Origin: Candidatus Dormiibacter spiritus
GTDB lineage: Bacteria; Chloroflexota; Dormibacteria; Dormibacterales; Dormibacteraceae
Assembly: GCA_003244185.1 (NCBI GenBank)
Contig: QHBT01000029.1
Coordinates: forward strand, 62,001 to 126,000
DNA length: 64,000 bases
Direction of reading: 5' to 3'
Positions within the stretch are counted from its first letter, which is position 1; each line of letters opens with the position of its first letter. This document shows, piece after piece, positions 39,745 to 50,870 of the stretch. The notes beneath the pieces were generated by a model, which saw only the letters and a list, made by a program, of their open reading frames with translations, was not told where the DNA came from and did no database searches. The translations under genes and the position numbers were made by a program.

Positions 39745-42359
39745 CCGATACGCTCCAGTAGGGCGACCGGAAACCTGCCAAGCAGCTCAGCCAGCGCCAC
39801 CGGGCCACCGCCGTGCTCCGCCGCGCTGAACAGGTTCCGCCAGCGACCCTCGGGCAGATCGGCCGCAGTGGCCGCCCCCCATTCGCCGGCCAGGCCGCAG
39901 ACAAGCCTGGGCACCACTGTGACCGCACCCTCGCCGCGCTTGAAGGCAATCACGTGATCCGCCTGGGGACCCGCCACCGTCACCGGCTCGTACCCTGCTG
40001 TGAAGATCTCCGGCCGCCGCTCGCGCAGGCGAAGCGCTCGCGTCACCACCAGCAGCTTGGGCAGCCCTGAATCCTGGCCTTCGGACCAGACGCCGGCCGC
40101 GCCATCGCCCATCGCATCCAGTTCGGCCAAGAGCCGAGCCCGCCTGGTGAAGTCGACTGGGCGCCGGTTGTCAGGGTCGACCAGGCTCAGGTCCCAGAGC
40201 TCGCAGCCCTGATAGCAGTCGGGCACTCCCGGCGCTGTCAGGCAGAGCAGCTTCTGAGCCAGTGAGTTGACCCGGCCGGGCGCGATCAGTGGCTGGACGA
40301 AGCCCGTCAAGTCGGTCACGAACTTCTGGTCAGCCAGGATGCCTCTAACGAAGCGCTCCAGCGCGGCCTCGTAGGCGTGGTTGTTCTGGATCCAGGAGGT
40401 CTCGGCCTTGGCCTCGCGGGCTGCCTTGATCATGTACTCCACGGCTCGGTCAGGGCCCAGCGGCCAAGCGCCGACCAGCGTCTGGTAGAGCAGGTACTCG
40501 GCCGACCTGTCCGGGCCGTCCGGGCTGCGCTGCCGCTCGTTGAGCTCCGACCAGCGCGCCGCGGCAGCGGACCAGGGCAGCGGCAGCTCCGAGAGCAGTG
40601 CCAGCCGGGCCCTGACGTCCTCCGACCGCTTGGTGTCGTGAGTGCTGGTGGAAAGCATGGCCGCCGGCCAGCGCTCAGCGCGGTGGACGCACGCAGCGTG
40701 GAAGGCGGCCGGCGACACGCCGAACCGGCCGGGATCGCCACCCACCTCGTTGAGGCCGATCAGCCGGTTGTAGACATAGAAGCTCGTGTCCTCCACGCCC
40801 TTGGCGGTGACTGGGCTGGAGGTCTGCTGAAAGCGCGCGATCAGCTCGACCGCGTCCTCGCTCAAGGGTTCTTCTTTGAGGATGAGCCGGCCCAAGAATC
40901 CCAGCAGCTCAGGCGCCAGCTCTGGCCTTCGCCGTCGGACCGCCCCCACGGCCGCTTCGATGACTGCGCGGTCAGCCGGGGAAGGCGGCTCCGCGGTCCC
41001 GGGCCGCACATAGGTGCGGTACACCGGAAGGCAGGCGATCAGCTCGGTAAGGCATGCCCTCAGCTCGTGGCTGGTGTAGTCGCGGTATCTGCGATCGGTC
41101 TCGCGAACCCGCTCGAAGTGAACCAGCAGCCGGTTCAGATCCGAACCCAGCAGCTGCTCCAGCACCTGCCGCTTCCGGTTGTAGACCACCTCCGCATACG
41201 GTTCACTGAGGCCAGTGAACTCCTGAAAAGCATCGCTCAGCCCCGTCTCGCCGTGGGGGTCGATGAAGAGGCCCAGGGCGAGGTTCAGGAAGTCATAGCC
41301 TGTCGTGCCGGCCACCGGCCAGTCCTCGGGCAGCTGCTCTGAGGTGCCCAGGATCTTCTCGGCCACCACCCAGGCCGAAGGTGCCTGAGCGGAAAGCTTC
41401 TGGAAGTAGCCCTTCGGATCCCGCAGGCCGTCAGGGTGGTCGATGCGGAGGCCATCGAGGACGCCTGCGTTGATCCAATCGATGACCAACCTGTGGGTCT
41501 GCTCGAACACCTCAGGATCCTCGACGCGCATGGCCGCCAGCTCTGACACATCGAAGAAGCGACGGTAGGACAGCTCGTGGGCGGCCACCTGCCAGCGCGC
41601 CAACCGGTAGTGCTGCCGACACAGCAGGGCGTCGACAGCCTCCGCATCGGCGTTTACCTGGACGAGGCGCTGGTCGACGAGCAGCGCCAGATCCGGCTGC
41701 TCAAGCTGTCGCAGCAGGGCGGTGGCGAGACGATGACGGTGGCGGGCGCCGTCCTGGTCGCCTGGCGTCACCTCGGGCAGGGCGGCCAGCTCAGCGCCCA
41801 GGCCGGTCAGGGGCTCGGGCAGCACCAGCGCATAGGTCTGCGGATCGAGCGGGAACTCCTGCTCCAAGTAGGCGACGTTGAGGCGCCATCCGCGGCGAAC
41901 CAGCTGCAGCTGGCCGGATTCCAGCGCTCGGGCATAGTGGTCGCCCAGCACTGGCAGCAGGATCAGACCGCGCAGCTTGCGCTCGGGCGGATCCCAGAAC
42001 ACGTCGAAGTAGGAGGCATAGCGGCTGGAGTGGCCGTTCTCCAGCACGTCCCACCACCAGCGGTTGCGCCGATCGTTGATGGCCATGTGGTTGGGCACGT
42101 GGTCCAGCACCTGGCCCAAGCCCTGCTCCTTGAGCGCCGAGCAGAACCGGGCGTGAGCTGCCTCGCCGCCCAGGTCCTCATTCAAACTCCGGTGGTCGAC
42201 CACGTCGTAGCCGTGGCGGCTGCCCGGCCGCGCCTGTAGGTAGGGCGAGCAGTAGAGGTGGCTCACGCCCAGCCGCGCCAGGTAGGGCACGATCTCGGCG
42301 GCAGCGTCGAAGCCGAAGTCGGGCGTGAGCTGGACGCGATAGGTCGAGCGGGGCGTCAG
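39741..42359 (-). CDS. treY: malto-oligosyltrehalose synthase
   Basis: Converts the reducing-end alpha-1,4 bond of maltodextrin to the alpha,alpha-1,1 bond; GH13_26, 872 residues. Visible: HLYCSPYLQARPGSRHGYDV, GLRIDHPDGL (nucleophile), WVVAEKILGTSEQLP (acid/base), TAKGVEDTSFYVYNRLIGLN and STHDTKRSEDVRARLA. The conserved opening STYRVQLTPDFGF appears only if translation begins at the CTG at 42359 (LTPRSTYRVQ), overlapping the treX stop as CTGA; the next standard codon, GTG at 42290, lies after it. Operon with treX and treZ; product passes to TreZ. Confidence 0.93.
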   Translation of the reverse strand: MTPRSTYRVQLTPDFGFDAAAEIVPYLARLGVSHLYCSPYLQARPGSRHGYDVVDHRSLNEDLGGEAAHARFCSALKEQGLGQVLDHVPNHMAINDRRNRWWWDVLENGHSSRYASYFDVFWDPPERKLRGLILLPVLGDHYARALESGQLQLVRRGWRLNVAYLEQEFPLDPQTYALVLPEPLTGLGAELAALPEVTPGDQDGARHRHRLATALLRQLEQPDLALLVDQRLVQVNADAEAVDALLCRQHYRLARWQVAAHELSYRRFFDVSELAAMRVEDPEVFEQTHRLVIDWINAGVLDGLRIDHPDGLRDPKGYFQKLSAQAPSAWVVAEKILGTSEQLPEDWPVAGTTGYDFLNLALGLFIDPHGETGLSDAFQEFTGLSEPYAEVVYNRKRQVLEQLLGSDLNRLLVHFERVRETDRRYRDYTSHELRACLTELIACLPVYRTYVRPGTAEPPSPADRAVIEAAVGAVRRRRPELAPELLGFLGRLILKEEPLSEDAVELIARFQQTSSPVTAKGVEDTSFYVYNRLIGLNEVGGDPGRFGVSPAAFHAACVHRAERWPAAMLSTSTHDTKRSEDVRARLALLSELPLPWSAAAARWSELNERQRSPDGPDRSAEYLLYQTLVGAWPLGPDRAVEYMIKAAREAKAETSWIQNNHAYEAALERFVRGILADQKFVTDLTGFVQPLIAPGRVNSLAQKLLCLTAPGVPDCYQGCELWDLSLVDPDNRRPVDFTRRARLLAELDAMGDGAAGVWSEGQDSGLPKLLVVTRALRLRERRPEIFTAGYEPVTVAGPQADHVIAFKRGEGAVTVVPRLVCGLAGEWGAATAADLPEGRWRNLFSAAEHGGGPVALAELLGRFPVALLERIG

Positions 42360-44461
42360 GACTTGTCGACCCTCATCAGCACCGCCACTGAGCGCTCTTG
42401 CACAGGCACCTGGCCGCCCGCCCGGTAGTAGCGCACCAGCGGGTCGGCCGTGTCCAGAACCCGCTTCCAGCGCTGGCCGAAACCGCGGGGCAGGGAAAAG
42501 CGGATGGGCTCGAAGTGGGCGTTGAAGAGCAGGAAGATCGAATCGTCGATCACCTTGCGGCCTCGCAGGTCCGGACTGGCGATCTCGTCGCCGTTCAGGT
42601 AGACGGCCAGTGAGCGGGCAAAGCCGACATTCCAGTCGGCGGAGGTCATGCGGCCGCCGTCGGGTCGAAACCAGCCGATATCACTGGTCTCCTCGGCTTG
42701 GATCTCGCGGCCGGCGAACCAGCGCCGGCGCCTGAAGACCGGGTGCGCCCGGCGAAATTCGATCAGCTTGGTGCAGAAAGCGAGAAGGTCGTAGTCGACC
42801 TTGCTCCAGTCGAACCAGCTGATCTCGTTGTCCTGACAGTAGGCGTTGTTGTTGCCCCCCTGAGAGCGGCCGAACTCGTCGCCGCCCAGGAGCATGGGCA
42901 CGCCCTGGGAGAACATGATGGTGGCCAGAAAGTTGCGCTTCTGACGCTGGCGCAGGGCGTTGACAGCGGGATCGGGGCTGGGCCCCTCCTCGCCGCAGTT
43001 CCAGGAGCGGTTGTAGCTCTCGCCGTCGCGGTTGCCCTCACCGTTTGCCTCGTTGTGCTTCAGGTTGTAGGAGACGAGGTCGTCAAGCGTGAAACCGTCG
43101 TGACAGGTGACGAAGTTGATGCTGGCGTAAGGCCGGCGGCCATCCAGTTGATAGAGGTCGGAGGAGCCCGTGAAACGCATGGCGAATTCGCCCAGCGTGG
43201 CTGCCTCGCCCCGCCAGTAGTCGCGCACGCAGTCGCGGTACTTCCCGTTCCACTCCGACCAGAGCACTGGGAAGTTGCCCACCTGGTAACCGCCCTCACC
43301 GACGTCCCAGGGCTCCGCTATCAACTTCACCTGAGAGAGGATCGGATCCTGCTGGACCAGGTCGAAGAAGGCCGACAGCCTGTCGACGTCGTGCAGCTCG
43401 CGCGCCAGGGTGGCGGCAAGGTCGAAGCGAAAGCCATCCACGTGCATGTCCGTGACCCAGTAGCGGAGGCTGTCCATGATCATCTGGAGGACGTGCGGAT
43501 GGCGCATGTTGAGGCTGTTCCCGGTGCCCGTGTAGTCCATGCAGTAGCGCGGGTTGTCGGCGATGAGCCGGTAATAGGCGGCGTTGTCGATGCCCCGGAA
43601 ACAGAGAGTTGGGCCCAGGTGGTTGCCCTCGGCTGTGTGGTTGTAGACAACGTCGAGGATGACCTCGATACCTGCTCTGTGCAGGTTCTTCACCATCTGC
43701 TTGAACTCCTGCACCTGCTGGCCGCGCTGCCCGCTGGAGCTGTACTCGTTGTGGGGCGCGAAATAGCCGATCGAGTTGTAGCCCCAGTAGTTGCGCAGGC
43801 CGAGCTGGTTCAGGCGGTTGTCGTGCACGAACTGGTGCACGGGCAGCAGCTCGACAGCCGTGATCCCCAGGTTCTGGAGGTACTGGATCGCTTCGGGCGT
43901 GCCGAGTCCGGCGTAGGTGCCGCGCAGGTCGGGCGGAAGTTGCGGATGCAGCTTTGTCATGCCCTTGACGTGCACCTCGTAGATGACTGTCTCGTGCCAG
44001 GGGATGCGCAGGTGCCGGTCCTCTTCCCAGCTGAACCAGGGATCGCTGACCACCGACTTGGGCACATAGGGCCCGCTGTCGGTGGGGTCCAAGGCCAGGT
44101 CCTGGGCCGGGTTGCTCTGGTCGTAGGCGAAGATGGTGGCGTTCCAGTGCACGACACCCTCGATTGCCTTGGCGTAAGGATCGAGCAGGAGCTTGGCGGG
44201 ATTGCAGCGCACTCCGTGATCAGGTGAGTAGGGGCCATGCACGCGGAAGCCGTAGCGATGACCGGGCCTGATGTTGGGCACGTAGGCGTGCCAACAATGC
44301 GCGGTGACCTCGGGCAGAGCTAGCCGAGTCTCCTCACCGCCGGCTCCGTCGAACAAACAAAGTTCGACCTTCTCGGCTACCTCCGAGAAGATCGAGAAGT
44401 TGGTGCCCACACCGTCGAAATGCGCACCCAAGGGGTAGGGCTGTCCCGGCCAAATCTCCAT
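42356..44461 (-). CDS. treX: glycogen debranching enzyme GlgX/TreX
   Basis: GH13_11 debranching enzyme of 701 residues that removes alpha-1,6 branches to give linear chains for TreY. N-terminal CBM48 (PLGAHFDGVGTNFSIFSEVA), then VYEVHVKGMT, VILDVVYNHTAEGN, GFRFDLAATLARELH (nucleophile Asp), LIAEPWDVGEGGYQVGNFP (acid/base Glu), FVTCHDGFTLDDLV, and LLGGDEFGRSQGGNNNAYCQ. First gene of the leftward trehalose operon. The promoter must lie in the 605-bp spacer before malQ. Confidence 0.96.
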   Translation of the reverse strand: MEIWPGQPYPLGAHFDGVGTNFSIFSEVAEKVELCLFDGAGGEETRLALPEVTAHCWHAYVPNIRPGHRYGFRVHGPYSPDHGVRCNPAKLLLDPYAKAIEGVVHWNATIFAYDQSNPAQDLALDPTDSGPYVPKSVVSDPWFSWEEDRHLRIPWHETVIYEVHVKGMTKLHPQLPPDLRGTYAGLGTPEAIQYLQNLGITAVELLPVHQFVHDNRLNQLGLRNYWGYNSIGYFAPHNEYSSSGQRGQQVQEFKQMVKNLHRAGIEVILDVVYNHTAEGNHLGPTLCFRGIDNAAYYRLIADNPRYCMDYTGTGNSLNMRHPHVLQMIMDSLRYWVTDMHVDGFRFDLAATLARELHDVDRLSAFFDLVQQDPILSQVKLIAEPWDVGEGGYQVGNFPVLWSEWNGKYRDCVRDYWRGEAATLGEFAMRFTGSSDLYQLDGRRPYASINFVTCHDGFTLDDLVSYNLKHNEANGEGNRDGESYNRSWNCGEEGPSPDPAVNALRQRQKRNFLATIMFSQGVPMLLGGDEFGRSQGGNNNAYCQDNEISWFDWSKVDYDLLAFCTKLIEFRRAHPVFRRRRWFAGREIQAEETSDIGWFRPDGGRMTSADWNVGFARSLAVYLNGDEIASPDLRGRKVIDDSIFLLFNAHFEPIRFSLPRGFGQRWKRVLDTADPLVRYYRAGGQVPVQERSVAVLMRVDKS

Positions 44462-44731
44462 ACGTCCGTCCGCAACGGTACGGTCAGCGCGTGATCCACC
44501 GTCGCCGTCGATCAGGCTTGTCGGCCGGCGCCAGCTACAGTCCAGGGAAGTGACGGAGCAGCAAAATCAACGGCAACGGGAGGCACGCCTCCCCTTCCAA
44601 AACCCCACCAGGTGGGCGTTGGACGGATGCCTCCCTCGGCGCCAAACACTTCAGGCGGACGGCCGTGTGTACTTCGCACTGGCCGGCGCCGAGGTCCGGC
44701 TGGGATGAACCCCCAGCCCATCGACCTAACT
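44462..44731. other. spacer between treX and repeat copy B
   Basis: Part of the 605-bp divergent gap between treX and malQ. It holds a small GC-rich hairpin (GGGAGG-CACG-CCTCCC, 44578-44593) and no credible gene. Short open frames on both strands continue into the repeat and look noncoding. The treX promoter should be here but no clear hexamers stand out. Confidence 0.5.
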
Positions 44732-45033
44732 TGTCCGGTCCCCGAGATCTTGAGAACCCGAGCAGGGATTTTGCGTCCTCCCCCCGCAGCTGCGGGGGGA
44801 GGCTCGGAGGGGGGCGTCAGCGGCCCACCTTGCCCCCGCCGCCCTGTGGTGAGACCTTTGCGTCCAAGGTCCGTCAAACCCCTCTCGAGGGCCCAGGAGC
44901 TGCGGCGAGATGCCCAAGGACCGAAATGGCGGCTCTGGTCCAGCCTGCAATCCAAGGCCCCCCACCTGCCTCCCCCCGGGCGGGGGGAGGACGACCTCAA
45001 CCAAGAGCGTCTCAGCTACTCGGGGACCGGGCA
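44732..45033 (-). repeat. 300-bp repeat element with terminal inverted repeats, copy B (inverted relative to copy A)
   Basis: Reverse complement matches 27810-28108 almost throughout, with scattered substitutions and one- to four-base indels. Left end TGTCCGGTCCCCGAG is intact; the right end reads CCGGGCA instead of CCGGACA. Inner inverted blocks (GTCCTCCCCCC) are kept, as is a hairpin of CCTCCCCCCGCAGCTGCGGG type at about 44774-44796. Sits in the treX/malQ divergent spacer, 34 bp before malQ. Confidence 0.87.
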
Positions 45034-45066
45034 GCCTAACGTCCGTCCACGAGCGCGGCGGGAGTC

Positions 45067-46914
45067 ATGAACTCCGCTCACAGACCTGTCGCCGAGCAGC
45101 AGGTTCGTGCGCGCGCCTGGCGGGTGGCGATGGGTTATCACGACCAGGAAGGCCGCTGGCAGGAGCCTGCACCCGAGGTGCTCGAGCGCATCCTGGCGGC
45201 TTTGGGAGGCGGTGCAGACCTTCCCCCACCGCGCCGGCCGGTTCGGTTCCTCCGGCCAGGCCGATCACTCGCGCTGAACGAAGCGCACGAGCTTCTCACC
45301 GAGGACGGAGCGGTGCTGACTCTCGCAGGCAGGACGCCGGCTGACCTGCCCGCCGGCTACCACGAGCTGCGCCGCCTTGCCGATGGAGCTCGGCAGCGGC
45401 TGATTGTCAGCCCGGGCGTTTGCCGCTCTCCCAGCGATGCGAGGGCATGGGCCTGGGCGGTCCAGCTCTATGCTTTGCGTTCGCGCGCCAGCTGGGGCCT
45501 GGGCGATCTGGCCGACCTGCGTGAACTCGGGCGGTGGTCGAAGGCGGAGCTGGGTGCCGGCGGCGTCCTGCTCAACCCGCTGCACGCCGCTCTGCCGACT
45601 CTGCCTCAGCAGCCCAGCCCCTACTACCCGGCCAGCCGGCGCTTCCGCAGTCCCCTCTACCTGCGGGTCGAGGAGGCGCCGGGGGCCGAGCGGCTGGGCG
45701 GCCGCCTCGAGCCCCTGGCCAGTGCGGGCCGGGCGCTGAATCAGGCCCGGCTGATCGACCGCGACCGCGTCTTCCAGCTCAAGCTCGAAGCGCTGGCGGC
45801 CGTTTTTGAGACGTGGTCCGGCGACCCCGACTTGGATCGCTACGCCGAGCGGGAGGGCGCCGGACTGCGCGACTTCGCCCACTTCTGCGTGTTGAGCGAG
45901 GAGCACGGCTCGCCCTGGCAGCGCTGGCCCCAGGAGCTGCACCGACCTGACTCCCCTGCCGTGGCTCGGTTTGCAAAGGCGAAACGCCAGCGCGTGCGGT
46001 TCCACGAGTGGCTGCAGTGGCTGCTAGACAGGCAGCTGGCGGCAGCCGCCGGCGAGATCGGGCTGATCAATGACATGGCTGTCGGCGTGCAGAGCGACGG
46101 AGCTGACACCTGGCTCTGGCCCGACGCTTTCGCAGAAGGCGTCTCAGTCGGCGCCCCACCTGACTCCTTCAACCCGGCCGGCCAGAACTGGGGTGTCCTC
46201 CCCTTTCATCCGTGGCGGCTCGGGCAGGCGGGCTATGAGCCCTTCATCCAGACGGTGCGGGCAGCTTTCCGCCACGGCGCCGGACTGCGCTTCGATCACG
46301 TGATGGGACTGTTCAGGCTGTTCTGGATCCCAGCCGGCTCAGACGGCAGCCAGGGCGCCTACGTTCACTATCCCTTCGGTGACCTGCTCGACGTCCTGGC
46401 GCTCGAGTCCCAGCGCGCGGGCGCCTTCGTCGTGGGCGAGGACCTGGGCACCGTGGAGCCGGGGACGCGTGAGGAACTGAGCCGCCGGGAAGTCCTCTCC
46501 TACCGCCTGCTCTGGTTCGAGGAGCAGCCGCCGGAGAGCTACCCGGCGCGGGCGCTGGCGGCGCTCACCACTCACGACCTCCCCACGCTGGCCGGCGTCT
46601 GGGGCGGCGTGGACACGGATCCGGAGATCAGAGACCGGCTTCGCGAGCACGCCGGCTTGACCGGCGAGGAGACAGTGGCGGAGGTGATAGGTCCGGCGCA
46701 CAGAGCTCTGGCCCGCAGCCCAGCCCAGATTCTCAGCGCCACGCTGGAGGATGCTCTAGGCGTCGCCGAACGGCCCAATCATCCCGGCGGGGACGCTGAC
46801 TGGCCGAACTGGCGCCTGGCCCTGCCGCTATCACTGGAGCAGATTCAAGCGCAGGCAGGCGTCGCCCAAGTCGCCAGGGCGTTGAGCTCCGGCGAGCTGA
46901 GCGACTCTCGCTGA
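45067..46914 (+). CDS. malQ: 4-alpha-glucanotransferase (amylomaltase)
   Basis: GH77 enzyme, 615 residues, disproportionating maltodextrins. N-terminal helical extension, then WAVQLYALRSRASWGLGDLA, NPLHAALPTLPQQPSPYYPA, INDMAVGVQSDGADTWLWPD, GLRFDHVMGLFRLFWIP (nucleophile Asp), FVVGEDLGTVEPGTREEL (acid/base Glu) and TTHDLPTLAGVW. Rightward, divergent from treX and followed 29 bp later by the GH15 gene. Supplies or uses chains around the TreXYZ route. Confidence 0.95.
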   Translation: MNSAHRPVAEQQVRARAWRVAMGYHDQEGRWQEPAPEVLERILAALGGGADLPPPRRPVRFLRPGRSLALNEAHELLTEDGAVLTLAGRTPADLPAGYHELRRLADGARQRLIVSPGVCRSPSDARAWAWAVQLYALRSRASWGLGDLADLRELGRWSKAELGAGGVLLNPLHAALPTLPQQPSPYYPASRRFRSPLYLRVEEAPGAERLGGRLEPLASAGRALNQARLIDRDRVFQLKLEALAAVFETWSGDPDLDRYAEREGAGLRDFAHFCVLSEEHGSPWQRWPQELHRPDSPAVARFAKAKRQRVRFHEWLQWLLDRQLAAAAGEIGLINDMAVGVQSDGADTWLWPDAFAEGVSVGAPPDSFNPAGQNWGVLPFHPWRLGQAGYEPFIQTVRAAFRHGAGLRFDHVMGLFRLFWIPAGSDGSQGAYVHYPFGDLLDVLALESQRAGAFVVGEDLGTVEPGTREELSRREVLSYRLLWFEEQPPESYPARALAALTTHDLPTLAGVWGGVDTDPEIRDRLREHAGLTGEETVAEVIGPAHRALARSPAQILSATLEDALGVAERPNHPGGDADWPNWRLALPLSLEQIQAQAGVAQVARALSSGELSDSR

Positions 46915-46943
46915 GCAGCCGCCACGTGGTGAGATAGAGGGAC

Positions 46944-48818
46944 ATGCAACAAGACGCTCCGGTCGACGCCAAGGGCACGACAGGGAAGAGCAACCGCCAG
47001 ACGCCCAACGCCTATCCGCCCATCGGCGACTACGCCTTCATCAGCGACTGCCACTCGACGGCGCTCGTCAGCACCGATGCGTCGATCGACTGGTGCTGCC
47101 TGCGCCGGGTCGACGCCGGCAGCTGCTTCGGCCGCCTCCTCGACTGGCAGACCGGCGGCTACTGCTCCATCACTCCCTGCAGCGAGACCTACGCCAGCCA
47201 CCGCGAGTACGTATCGGACACCATGGTCCTCAAAACGACCTTCACCACTGGTGGCGGCGAGGCGACGGTGATCGACTGCTTCGCAATGCGCACCGGCGGC
47301 CGCGAGCAGCCGCTGATGGAGCTGATCCGCATCATCGAGGGAGTCCGGGGCAGGGTCGATTTCGACCTCGAAATCGTTCCCCGCTTCGACTACGGAGAGA
47401 TGAGGCCGTGGCTCCGCCGAGCGGGCATCCGCACCTGGGCGGTGATCGGCGGCGACGACGGAATGCTGGTCAGCAGCGACGTGGAGCTGAGCCTCGGCGA
47501 TCACCATGACCTGCGAGCCCAGGTTTCGGTCCACGGCGAAGAACGGATCAGGCTGGTGATCCAAGCCAAACCGCCCACCGAGTTGGACGACGGCGCCTGG
47601 GATCCCGTGACGGCCGACGTCATCGACGAGCACCTGAAGAGCACTGTTGCCTGGTGGCGGCGGTGGACGAAGCGGGCCACTTTCGGCGGCCCCGACCGCC
47701 CCGCTGTGCTGCGCAGCGCGCTGGTGCTGAAGGCGTTGACCAACGCGCCGACCGGAGCCATCGCGGCTGCGGCGACCACCTCGCTGCCCGAGGAGATCGG
47801 CGGCCCGCGCAATTGGGACTACCGCTACAGCTGGATCCGCGACTCCTATCTCAGCGTGCACTCGCTGGCCCTGATCGGCTGCGACAAGGAGGCCGACGGC
47901 TTCCGCCGCTTCATGCAGCGCAGCTCGGCAGGTTCAGCGGATGAGCTGCAGATCATGTACGGCGTGGGCGGCGAGCGGCGCCTGACCGAGATCGTGCTGC
48001 CGCTGGAGGGCTATCGGGGCTCCCGGCCTGTCCGGATCGGCAACGCCGCCTCTGAGCAGCTGCAGCTGGACGCCTACGGGGAGCTGCTCCTGCTGACCTG
48101 GATCTGGCATCGCCGCGGCCACTCTCCCGACGATGACTACTGGCGCTTCCTGGCCGAGCTGGTCGACGTGGCGGCGGAGCGCTGGCGCGAGCCGGACTCA
48201 GGCATCTGGGAGATGCGCGGCCCCCGCCGCCACTTCGTGCATTCCAAGGTCATGTGCTGGGCGGCCGTCGACCGCGGCCTCCAGCTGGCCGTCGAGTGCA
48301 TGCGCCAGGCGCCGCTCGACCGCTGGCGCAAGACGCTGAAGGAGATGCGGGAATCGATCGACGCCAACGGTGTGGACAAAAAGCGCGGCTGCTTTGTGCA
48401 GTCGTACAAGAGCCGGCAGCTGGACGCCGCGCTGCTCACGCTGCCCAACGTCGGCTACTGCGAGTACGACGATCCCCGCATGGTCGCGACAGTGGAAGCC
48501 ATCCGGGCCGAGCTCGAGCAGGAGGGGCTGATCCTGCGCTACAGGACCGACAAGGTCAACGATGGTGTCAAGGGGGGCCGGGAGGGCTACTTTCTCGCCT
48601 GCACGTTCTGGCTCGTCGACTGCCTGGCCGGGCAGCGCCGCTTCGCCGAGGCGCGAGAGGTCTTCGATCGGGCCACTGCCGCCGGCAATGACCTGGGCCT
48701 ATTTGCCGAGGAGTTCGATCCCGAGAGCGGTCAGCTGCTCGGCAACTTCCCCCAAGCGTTCACTCACCTGGCGCACATCGCGGCCGCCGTGCGGCTATCG
48801 GAGGCCAGCCGCGCCTGA
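46944..48818 (+). CDS. GH15 family protein (glucoamylase/trehalase type)
   Basis: 624 residues of bacterial GH15. N-terminal beta-sandwich part (YPPIGDYAFISDCHSTALVS, IDWCCLRRVDAGSCFGRLLD), linker, then (alpha/alpha)6 barrel with RNWDYRYSWIRDSYLSVHSL, the first catalytic Glu region IMYGVGGERRLTEIVLPLEG, and the second GLFAEEFDPESGQLLGNFPQ. Relatives include mycobacterial-type GH15 trehalases, glucodextranases and glucoamylases; beside treXYZ and malQ a trehalase or maltodextrin hydrolase is likely. Likely in operon with malQ. Confidence 0.9.
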   Translation: MQQDAPVDAKGTTGKSNRQTPNAYPPIGDYAFISDCHSTALVSTDASIDWCCLRRVDAGSCFGRLLDWQTGGYCSITPCSETYASHREYVSDTMVLKTTFTTGGGEATVIDCFAMRTGGREQPLMELIRIIEGVRGRVDFDLEIVPRFDYGEMRPWLRRAGIRTWAVIGGDDGMLVSSDVELSLGDHHDLRAQVSVHGEERIRLVIQAKPPTELDDGAWDPVTADVIDEHLKSTVAWWRRWTKRATFGGPDRPAVLRSALVLKALTNAPTGAIAAAATTSLPEEIGGPRNWDYRYSWIRDSYLSVHSLALIGCDKEADGFRRFMQRSSAGSADELQIMYGVGGERRLTEIVLPLEGYRGSRPVRIGNAASEQLQLDAYGELLLLTWIWHRRGHSPDDDYWRFLAELVDVAAERWREPDSGIWEMRGPRRHFVHSKVMCWAAVDRGLQLAVECMRQAPLDRWRKTLKEMRESIDANGVDKKRGCFVQSYKSRQLDAALLTLPNVGYCEYDDPRMVATVEAIRAELEQEGLILRYRTDKVNDGVKGGREGYFLACTFWLVDCLAGQRRFAEAREVFDRATAAGNDLGLFAEEFDPESGQLLGNFPQAFTHLAHIAAAVRLSEASRA

Positions 48819-49358: not shown

Positions 49359-50870
49359 GTGGCCGACTACCACCACGACCTGCTCTTCGGGGCCTTCCTG
49401 CTCCCGAACGCGCGTGACCAGCAGGCGGTCGTAGCCGCAGCGGAGACGGCGGACGACCTGGGCCTCGACATCGTCGCCTTCCAGGACCATCCCTATCAGC
49501 CGGCGTTCCTGGACGTCTGGACGCTGCTGTCCTACGTGGCCGCTCGAACCAAACGGATCAGGCTCTTCCCCGACGTCGCCAATGTGCCTCTGCGACCGCC
49601 CGCCGTCCTGGCCCGCAGCGCCGCCGCTCTCGACATCCTCAGCGGTGGACGTGTCGAGCTCGGCCTGGGTGCCGGCGGCTTTCTGGACGCGATAGTGTCG
49701 ATGGGCGGACCCCGCCGCTCCGTATCAGAGCACGTGGAAGCGCTGGCCGAGGCCATAACCGTGATCCGCAGCCTCTGGCGGCCCGGACCGCCGGTTCACT
49801 TCAAGGGCTCGTACTACTTCCTGGAAGGAGCACGGCCCGGCCCGGTCCCCCCGCATCCGATCGGCATCTGGCTCGGGGCCTACAAGCGGCGGATGCTGCA
49901 GCTCACCGGCCGGACCGCCGATGGCTGGATTCCCTCCCTCGGTTATGCCGCGCCCGAGGACCTGCGCAGGATGAACCTGACCATCGACAGCGCCGCCCAG
50001 GACGCCGGACGTGATCCGGCCGAGATTCGGCGCGCCCTAAACATCAGCGGCACCTTCGGACCGCCGGGCTCGGGATTCCTGAATGGACCGGCCACGGAGT
50101 GGGCTGAGCAGCTCGCTGAGCTCGCGCTGCTGGACGGGATGAGCACGTTCATCCTGGGCTCCGGACCGGAAATCGCCGCGGACCTGCGGCGCTTCGCTGA
50201 AGAGGTTGCGCCCGCCGTCCGCGAGGCCGTCAGCCGAGAGAGGCAGCGTCGCTCGGCCCTCCCACCAACTGGACCGGCAAGCCCTGCGGTCGCGGCAGCC
50301 GGGCCTCAGCCGACTGCCGATCGTCCTGCCCGCGAGGCAGCGCGTGAAGCAGAGCGGCTGGTGAGCCAAGAGGAGCCGATCAGCCGCGTCGGCCGTGCGG
50401 GACAGCAGATGCTGCTTGCCGTTCACGAGCACCTGAGGTTGGAGCTGGCGAAGCTTCGCGAAGTGATCACGGAGGTCGCGGAGGGCAGGGCCTCTGCGGC
50501 CCAAGCCAGGTCGTATCTGAACCAGATGACCATGCGGCAGAACTACTGGACGCTCGGCGCGTTCTGTGCCGCCTACTGCCGCGTTGTGAGCGTCCACCAC
50601 GCGATCGAGGACCAGCAGATGTTCGCCGATCTCAGGGCGGCTGACCAGTCACTGGGCCCGATCCTGGAGCGCCTCCGCCACGAACACGAGGGGATCGCCC
50701 GGGTTCTGGCCGAGGTCGACGCCGCCCTGGTCGCAATGGTGGACGACGAAAACCGTCTCAGCGACACCCAGGCAGCTGTCGACCACTTGGCGGATCTTCT
50801 GCTGGCCCACTTGAGGGACGAAGAGGAGCAGCTGCTGGAACCGATAGGCCGCCTGGGGATTCGAATCTAG
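49359..50870 (+). CDS. fusion: LLM-type flavin/F420 oxidoreductase plus hemerythrin HHE domain
   Basis: 503 residues, two domains. Residues about 1-290: luciferase-like monooxygenase TIM barrel (FGAFLLPNARDQQAVVAAAE, RIRLFPDVANVPLRPPAVLA, AALDILSGGRVELGLGAGGF, GIWLGAYKRRMLQLTGRTAD). A Pro/Ala linker follows (about 305-335). Residues about 350-500: hemerythrin-like four-helix bundle with the iron ligands spread over the helices (AVHEHLR, SVHHAIEDQQMF, LRHEHEGI, LLAHLRDEEEQLL). The fusion suggests O2 or redox sensing tied to a flavin/F420 reaction. Substrate unknown. Monocistronic with a leaderless-type promoter. Confidence 0.88.
   Translation: MADYHHDLLFGAFLLPNARDQQAVVAAAETADDLGLDIVAFQDHPYQPAFLDVWTLLSYVAARTKRIRLFPDVANVPLRPPAVLARSAAALDILSGGRVELGLGAGGFLDAIVSMGGPRRSVSEHVEALAEAITVIRSLWRPGPPVHFKGSYYFLEGARPGPVPPHPIGIWLGAYKRRMLQLTGRTADGWIPSLGYAAPEDLRRMNLTIDSAAQDAGRDPAEIRRALNISGTFGPPGSGFLNGPATEWAEQLAELALLDGMSTFILGSGPEIAADLRRFAEEVAPAVREAVSRERQRRSALPPTGPASPAVAAAGPQPTADRPAREAAREAERLVSQEEPISRVGRAGQQMLLAVHEHLRLELAKLREVITEVAEGRASAAQARSYLNQMTMRQNYWTLGAFCAAYCRVVSVHHAIEDQQMFADLRAADQSLGPILERLRHEHEGIARVLAEVDAALVAMVDDENRLSDTQAAVDHLADLLLAHLRDEEEQLLEPIGRLGIRI

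Follow-up and report, generated by a model that had tools for sequence, protein, structure and literature searches.

Results

A single-gene fusion of an LLM barrel and a hemerythrin-like domain

The window, i.e., the whole stretch of 64,000 nucleotides analyzed here from contig QHBT01000029.1 of Candidatus Dormiibacter spiritus, a soil bacterium, contains a single open frame at 49359-50870 (stop codon included; this and all features below are on the + strand) that encodes 503 amino acids without an internal stop. It begins with GTG at 49359, a start backed by the alignment, in which homologues begin MxDYGH. The initial annotation had described a flavin/F420-type barrel, a Pro/Ala linker and an HHE domain within one gene, and this was borne out by Pfam, which placed PF00296 at residues 22-229 (E = 5e-48; 164.5 bits versus a cut-off of 27.9) and PF01814 at residues 350-493 (E = 5e-13; 50.1 bits versus a cut-off of 25.3). 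These were the only Pfam domains in the protein, neither a metallo-beta-lactamase nor a flavodoxin domain being found. The luciferase-like (LLM) TIM-barrel domain, which also has sequence and fold matches in the PDB, occupies approximately residues 1-297 (49359-50249), and the hemerythrin HHE domain (Hr), all-helical in its AF2 model, residues 345-503 (50391-50867). They are joined by a linker of about 47 residues (approximately 298-344; 50250-50390), of which the first half is Pro/Ala-rich and the second half charged and helix-prone. In an end-to-end alignment of eight sequences, the window's included, the linker was the sole poorly conserved part, differing among relatives in both length and sequence, with a dN above that of both domains. 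Both domains are under purifying selection, with the Hr domain being the more constrained module (dN/dS = 0.07-0.10, versus 0.15-0.27 for the barrel). A full-length AlphaFold model built from eight input sequences had a mean pLDDT of 60, and contacts between the domains were not read from it. The host genome (2.96 Mb in 71 contigs; 93% complete) has its named relatives in Candidatus Dormiibacterota, the nearest being Candidatus Dormiibacter inghamiae.

The barrel is probably closest to F420-dependent enzymes

When a profile of the barrel was compared with PDB sequences, the top eight matches were all F420 enzymes, the best being Mer, Fgd and fHMAD. The barrel of the full-length model (pLDDT 60) matched the folds of Fgd, Mer and Adf and also those of FMN-dependent members; this fold is common to FMN-using and F420-using LLM proteins (PMC6279831). 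The motif D43-H44-P45-Y46 (49485-49496) is conserved in at least 95% of LLM homologues, fused and unfused, and its first two residues, D43-H44, are aligned with the "DH" found in Mer and other F420 enzymes. The protein has both the TIM-barrel fold and the aligned "DH" in common with the F420-dependent LLM oxidoreductases (Mer, Fgd, Adf, fHMAD; TIGR03560/TIGR03619), but differs from them in having a C-terminal di-iron-type domain and in scoring below the NCBIfam subfamily cut-offs. The best NCBIfam matches of the barrel were F420 families, with every subfamily cut-off shown being missed; the score against TIGR03560 (F420_Rv1855c), for example, was 124.1 bits, below the curated cut-off of 231.4. 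The genome has adjoining genes for CofD, CofE and FbiC, the last with both CofG and CofH halves, on contig C30 (G000:C30:38194-42133). With F420 enzymes as its closest relatives of known structure, and with these F420 genes in the genome, the barrel is likely to use F420 as its cofactor, in keeping with the earlier designation of the barrel as F420-type, although the cofactor itself is a prediction.

In two other genomes carrying the fusion (G011 and G020), CofD and CofE were present but neither CofG nor CofH was detected. An argument for FMN based on these genomes was dropped, CofD and CofE being intact there. All 16 Dormibacterota genomes tested contained CofD and CofE, with CofH being detected only in four (G000, G001, G012, G033) and not in the other twelve (G003, G008, G011, G015, G017, G018, G020, G022, G023, G024, G055, G064); CofG was also absent from all eight of these twelve that were tested for it. 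The presence of CofD and CofE, while CofH and CofG mostly went undetected, suggests that FO may be salvaged, or made by an unrecognized FO synthase, across Dormibacterota.

The hemerythrin-like domain has a RIC-like predicted iron site

Residue conservation in the Hr domain was assessed among 34 relatives with the fusion and 10 without it and, separately, in a wider set of 37 members. H356, H413, H414, E417, H443, H484, E488 and E489 were invariant in both sets. The candidate iron ligands are H356 on helix 1 (50424-50426; H358 is less conserved), H413 and E417 of an HHxxE motif formed with H414 on helix 2 (50595-50609), H443 on helix 3 (50685-50687), and H484 and E488 of an HxxxE motif on helix 4 (50808-50822), all in or at predicted helices. 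Classical O2-carrying hemerythrins have a second histidine on helix 3, in an HxxxH pattern; here the corresponding position, four residues before the helix-3 histidine, is an invariant leucine (L439). Thus, the initial claim that all of the usual histidine and acidic ligands were present holds for the 4-His/2-Glu set of HHE/YtfE proteins, which is complete, but not for the fifth histidine of hemerythrin. Because the latter is missing, a role in O2 delivery is unlikely, and the classical O2 carrier was rejected on the ligand set. The O2-binding or delivery function proposed originally is weakened accordingly, the ligands matching instead those of RIC-type and HLP-type di-iron proteins. These have reported roles in Fe-S repair and in the chemistry of NO, nitrite or peroxide.

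In YtfE the ligands are H84/H129/E133/H160/H204/E208 (PMC9268430), and the RIC/YtfE/ScdA proteins agree in both ligand set and spacing with H356/H413-x3-E417/H443/H484-x3-E488 of the window protein. The second-shell glutamate E159 of YtfE corresponds to E442, a position that is usually Glu but Gln or Asp in some Hr members. Unlike RIC/YtfE/ScdA, however, the window domain lacks the ScdA N-terminal domain, contains a CxxxC motif and is fused to an LLM barrel; it also gave no match to TIGR02481 (at an E threshold of 0.01) or to TIGR03652, the RIC/YtfE equivalog. As it has RIC-like ligands but matches neither model, we classify it from its sequence as an HHE protein with a predicted RIC-like site, outside both curated subfamilies. 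The mycobacterial hemerythrin-like proteins (HLPs; Rv2633c and Mka HLP) also have four histidines and two glutamates in a hemerythrin-like bundle, but Mka HLP has an additional tyrosine ligand and stands alone, whereas the window domain has an LLM barrel fused to it. Y396 and Y406 are conserved, as judged from sequence. The HLP of M. kansasii does not carry O2 but is an NO peroxidase, and NO-peroxidase and catalase chemistry, rather than O2 carriage, have been reported for related stand-alone proteins (PMC8913304).

The Hr domain has two further features. A pair of cysteines, C403-x3-C407, lies one turn apart on helix 2 (50565-50579); C403 was invariant in both sets (37 of 37 in the wider one) and C407 was found in 36 of 37 members of the wider set, although this conservation is partly due to sampling, because members were selected for their similarity to the LLM-type Hr domain. 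The CxxxC precedes HHxxE by 6-10 residues and is near-invariant in the subclass, whether fused or unfused. The second feature, seen in alignments and as a helix in the model, is an extra helix with the motif MTMRQNYW at approximately residues 377-397 (50487-50549). A model of the Hr domain alone was all-helical with a mean pLDDT of 82; a fold search of the PDB with it returned nothing significant and was uninformative, and a search of PDB sequences with the Hr profile gave no hemerythrin match. One other hemerythrin-family domain is encoded in the window genome, on a different contig (L022; G000:C20:41903-42244).

The fusion is genuine and occurs in two phyla

A scan of species genomes revealed eight further loci with a complete or near-complete fusion (49-69% identity), in addition to a copy from the same genus. 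Full-length fusions were found in that scan in Dormibacterota, a Streptosporangiales MAG, Nitriliruptorales, Rubrobacter, Acrocarpospora and Allonocardiopsis, with a match in Phytoactinopolyspora spanning only residues 105-501; the fusion also occurs on Streptomyces megaplasmids. In a sample of 201 genomes from Streptosporangiales, the order of Allonocardiopsis, there were 62 places with a close Hr match (E below 1e-45), 54 of them within frames of at least 425 amino acids, and an LLM domain was present in all 27 such long-frame places that were fetched. The LLM-Hr fusion has thus been kept across two phyla and is present in many actinobacteria.

The closest relative of the window gene, from the same genus and with about 90% identity (L030:275-1784), is interrupted near codon 281, where one extra base gives two overlapping frames, as might be expected if two genes had been joined in the window through a missing stop or a sequencing error. 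However, the extra base adjoins a run of A, and purifying selection is still evident in both halves when each is read in its own frame, so the break in L030 probably arose very recently or reflects an assembly error. With an intact frame in the window, the 27 of 27 Streptosporangiales places that include LLM, and fusions of independent sequence in Streptosporangiales, Rubrobacter, Nitriliruptorales, Jiangellaceae and Streptomyces, neither an erroneously missing stop nor separate genes in all relatives agrees with what was found, and we regard an artefact as ruled out for practical purposes.

The initial annotation knew of no studied example of this architecture, and we likewise found no study of an LLM-hemerythrin fusion in the open-access literature. 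Yet genome databases contain many proteins of this architecture, which has no name of its own there: the Streptomyces fusion WP_329595745.1, for example, is labeled "LLM class flavin-dependent oxidoreductase" in RefSeq, an automatic annotation that leaves the second domain unmentioned and so conceals a metal domain.

The same Hr subclass is fused to a second F420-type enzyme

The next-nearest Hr domains were encoded on Streptomyces clavuligerus plasmids, in proteins annotated as "nitroreductase/quinone reductase family protein". The one examined by Pfam consisted of PF04075 (F420H2-dependent quinone reductase) followed by PF01814. Among 17 frames of 300-520 amino acids, drawn from the more distant Hr matches in the Streptosporangiales sample, 12 were PF04075-PF01814 fusions, one was an LLM fusion and four were Hr alone. 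The PF04075-PF01814 proteins (e.g., S. clavuligerus WP_003959286.1) have the same domain order as the LLM-Hr fusion and keep both the ligands and the CxxxC. However, their enzyme fold is unrelated to LLM, their Hr domains are without the MTMRQNYW helix present in the LLM type, and the two types of Hr form separate clades divided by a branch with 100/99 support. The PF04075 and LLM folds of F420 enzymes have been described as unrelated (PMC8498797). Because the two Hr types fall across this branch and the enzyme folds are unrelated, the sequences indicate that one Hr subclass has been fused to F420-type enzymes at least twice, in many actinobacteria in the case of PF04075. Fusion on at least two independent occasions suggests that deazaflavin redox and di-iron chemistry are functionally linked, and is our strongest argument for such a link.

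Each module also exists alone

LLM-only orthologues (L005-L016, L033, L082-L094) are frequent in Dormibacterota and actinobacteria, with about 50-59% identity over the barrel. They have the same conserved barrel motifs as the fusion but no Hr domain, and their host genomes may or may not contain Hr genes; in three of these hosts (G293, G310, G347) the Hr profile matched nothing. Conversely, close Hr-only genes without an adjoining LLM were found at six loci (L037, L038, L072, L074, L076, L078). As both modules persist alone, their coupling is not obligatory.

In a tree of the barrel, 32 fused proteins and the frame-broken L030 formed one clade (support 99/94), whereas the fusions L032 and L046 were basal to a group of ten LLM-only proteins, a placement that fits either one fusion followed by loss of Hr or two fusions. 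In a tree of the Hr domain, the Hr-only L074, L076 and L078 grouped with the fused L077 and L079 at 100/100, and the Hr-only L037 and L038 with the Rubrobacter fusion at 95/96. Because these Hr-only copies nest inside fused ones, they look like later fissions. In the Streptosporangiales lineage of L077:535-1965 and L079:535-1965 the barrel is on a long branch (0.57), and the close relatives L074, L076 and L078 have Hr alone at that place, a hint that the barrel may be lost before Hr.

No neighboring genes were conserved across the fusion lineages. The window fusion is flanked by genes for a GH15 protein and a glycosyltransferase, and the others by PanE and a PAS histidine kinase (L023), YbjQ and a PAS histidine kinase (L024), an AMP-binding protein (L025), a hydrolase and an SDR protein (L027), or an MFS protein (Streptomyces). 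Because the neighbors differ in every lineage compared, no pathway could be assigned, and operon context was abandoned as a guide. Just upstream of the fusion, at 42356-48818, the window contains a glycogen/maltodextrin block comprising, as read from sequence, a probable GlgX-like debranching enzyme and a MalQ-like frame, together with a GH15/TREH_N protein identified by Pfam.

Discussion

We tentatively favor a two-module redox enzyme, a reading that we hold with somewhat less than even confidence. The barrel would transfer hydride between F420/F420H2 and a small molecule. The di-iron domain tethered to it, of the RIC/mycobacterial-HLP type, would remove H2O2, NO or O2 in the vicinity of the reduced cofactor or the substrate, and C403 and C407 may act as a redox relay or sensor. 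As the linker is long and variable, it would serve for tethering or local delivery rather than as a rigid interface for electron transfer or allostery. This reading draws on an intact two-domain frame under purifying selection with fusions in many lineages, the kinship of the barrel with F420 enzymes in a genome with F420 genes, the YtfE-like ligands, the independent PF04075-Hr fusions, and the known chemistry of HLPs, exemplified by the M. kansasii NO peroxidase (PMC8913304). However, LLM-only and Hr-only copies persist, no conserved neighbors point to stress or to a pathway, and the fold search of the PDB with the Hr model gave nothing significant.

It is possible, but on balance unlikely, that the Hr domain is instead a redox, O2 or NO sensor that turns the activity of the oxidoreductase on or off. 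Hemerythrin domains are already known as oxygen and redox sensor modules in bacterial signaling proteins (PMC9388753), and both the almost invariant, potentially redox-active CxxxC and the conserved extra helix specific to the LLM type would suit such a role. However, the linker is highly variable and no coupling helix is conserved, Hr-only copies persist, and one of them (L074) retains the extra helix, so it is not evident that this helix serves for docking to the barrel.

That the fusion serves only co-expression or stability, or that Hr stores iron, in both cases without mechanistic coupling, is an improbable explanation. Each module is indeed also found alone, and the long branch of the L077/L079 barrel beside Hr-only relatives would fit it. 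Two independent fusions specifically to deazaflavin-type enzymes, the retention of the fusion over large distances, and the almost invariant ligands and CxxxC all argue otherwise.

Still more improbable is an analogue of the flavodiiron F420H2 oxidases, in which electrons from F420H2 or FMNH2 would pass via C403/C407 to the di-iron site and reduce O2, H2O2 or NO. The independent fusion of one Hr subclass to two unrelated F420-enzyme folds, the closeness of CxxxC to the iron site in sequence, and the precedent of F420H2 oxidase, mentioned in a review of F420 (PMC8498797), speak for it. The likeness to flavodiiron proteins and F420H2 oxidase would be one of function, i.e., a reduced (deaza)flavin combined with di-iron, as their folds differ from that of the window fusion. 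Because F420 is a hydride carrier, such a relay is chemically harder: one-electron transfer to di-iron would need an intermediate cofactor, for which Pfam revealed no domain. The long, variable linker and the existence of LLM-only and Hr-only copies also count against it.

A broader proposal, which we consider doubtful, is that the fusions represent an undescribed general class of "deazaflavo-diiron" enzymes in Actinobacteria and Dormibacterota, in which a CxxxC hemerythrin-like module was recruited independently by the LLM barrel and the PF04075 split barrel, and the reduced deazaflavin feeds, or is guarded by, a di-iron center that would reduce O2, H2O2 or NO. If true, these would be a non-homologous counterpart of the flavodiiron F420H2 oxidases. 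Actinobacterial F420 enzymes are numerous and mostly of unknown function. While the individual parts were known, the PF04075-Hr parallel, i.e., the same Hr subclass on a second F420 fold, is new, and the fact that one di-iron module has been joined repeatedly and independently to two unrelated F420-enzyme folds suggests a chemical need common to both, such as the handling of O2, peroxide or NO around F420H2. Natural fused, barrel-only and Hr-only versions all exist, so this need is testable with a small set of proteins.
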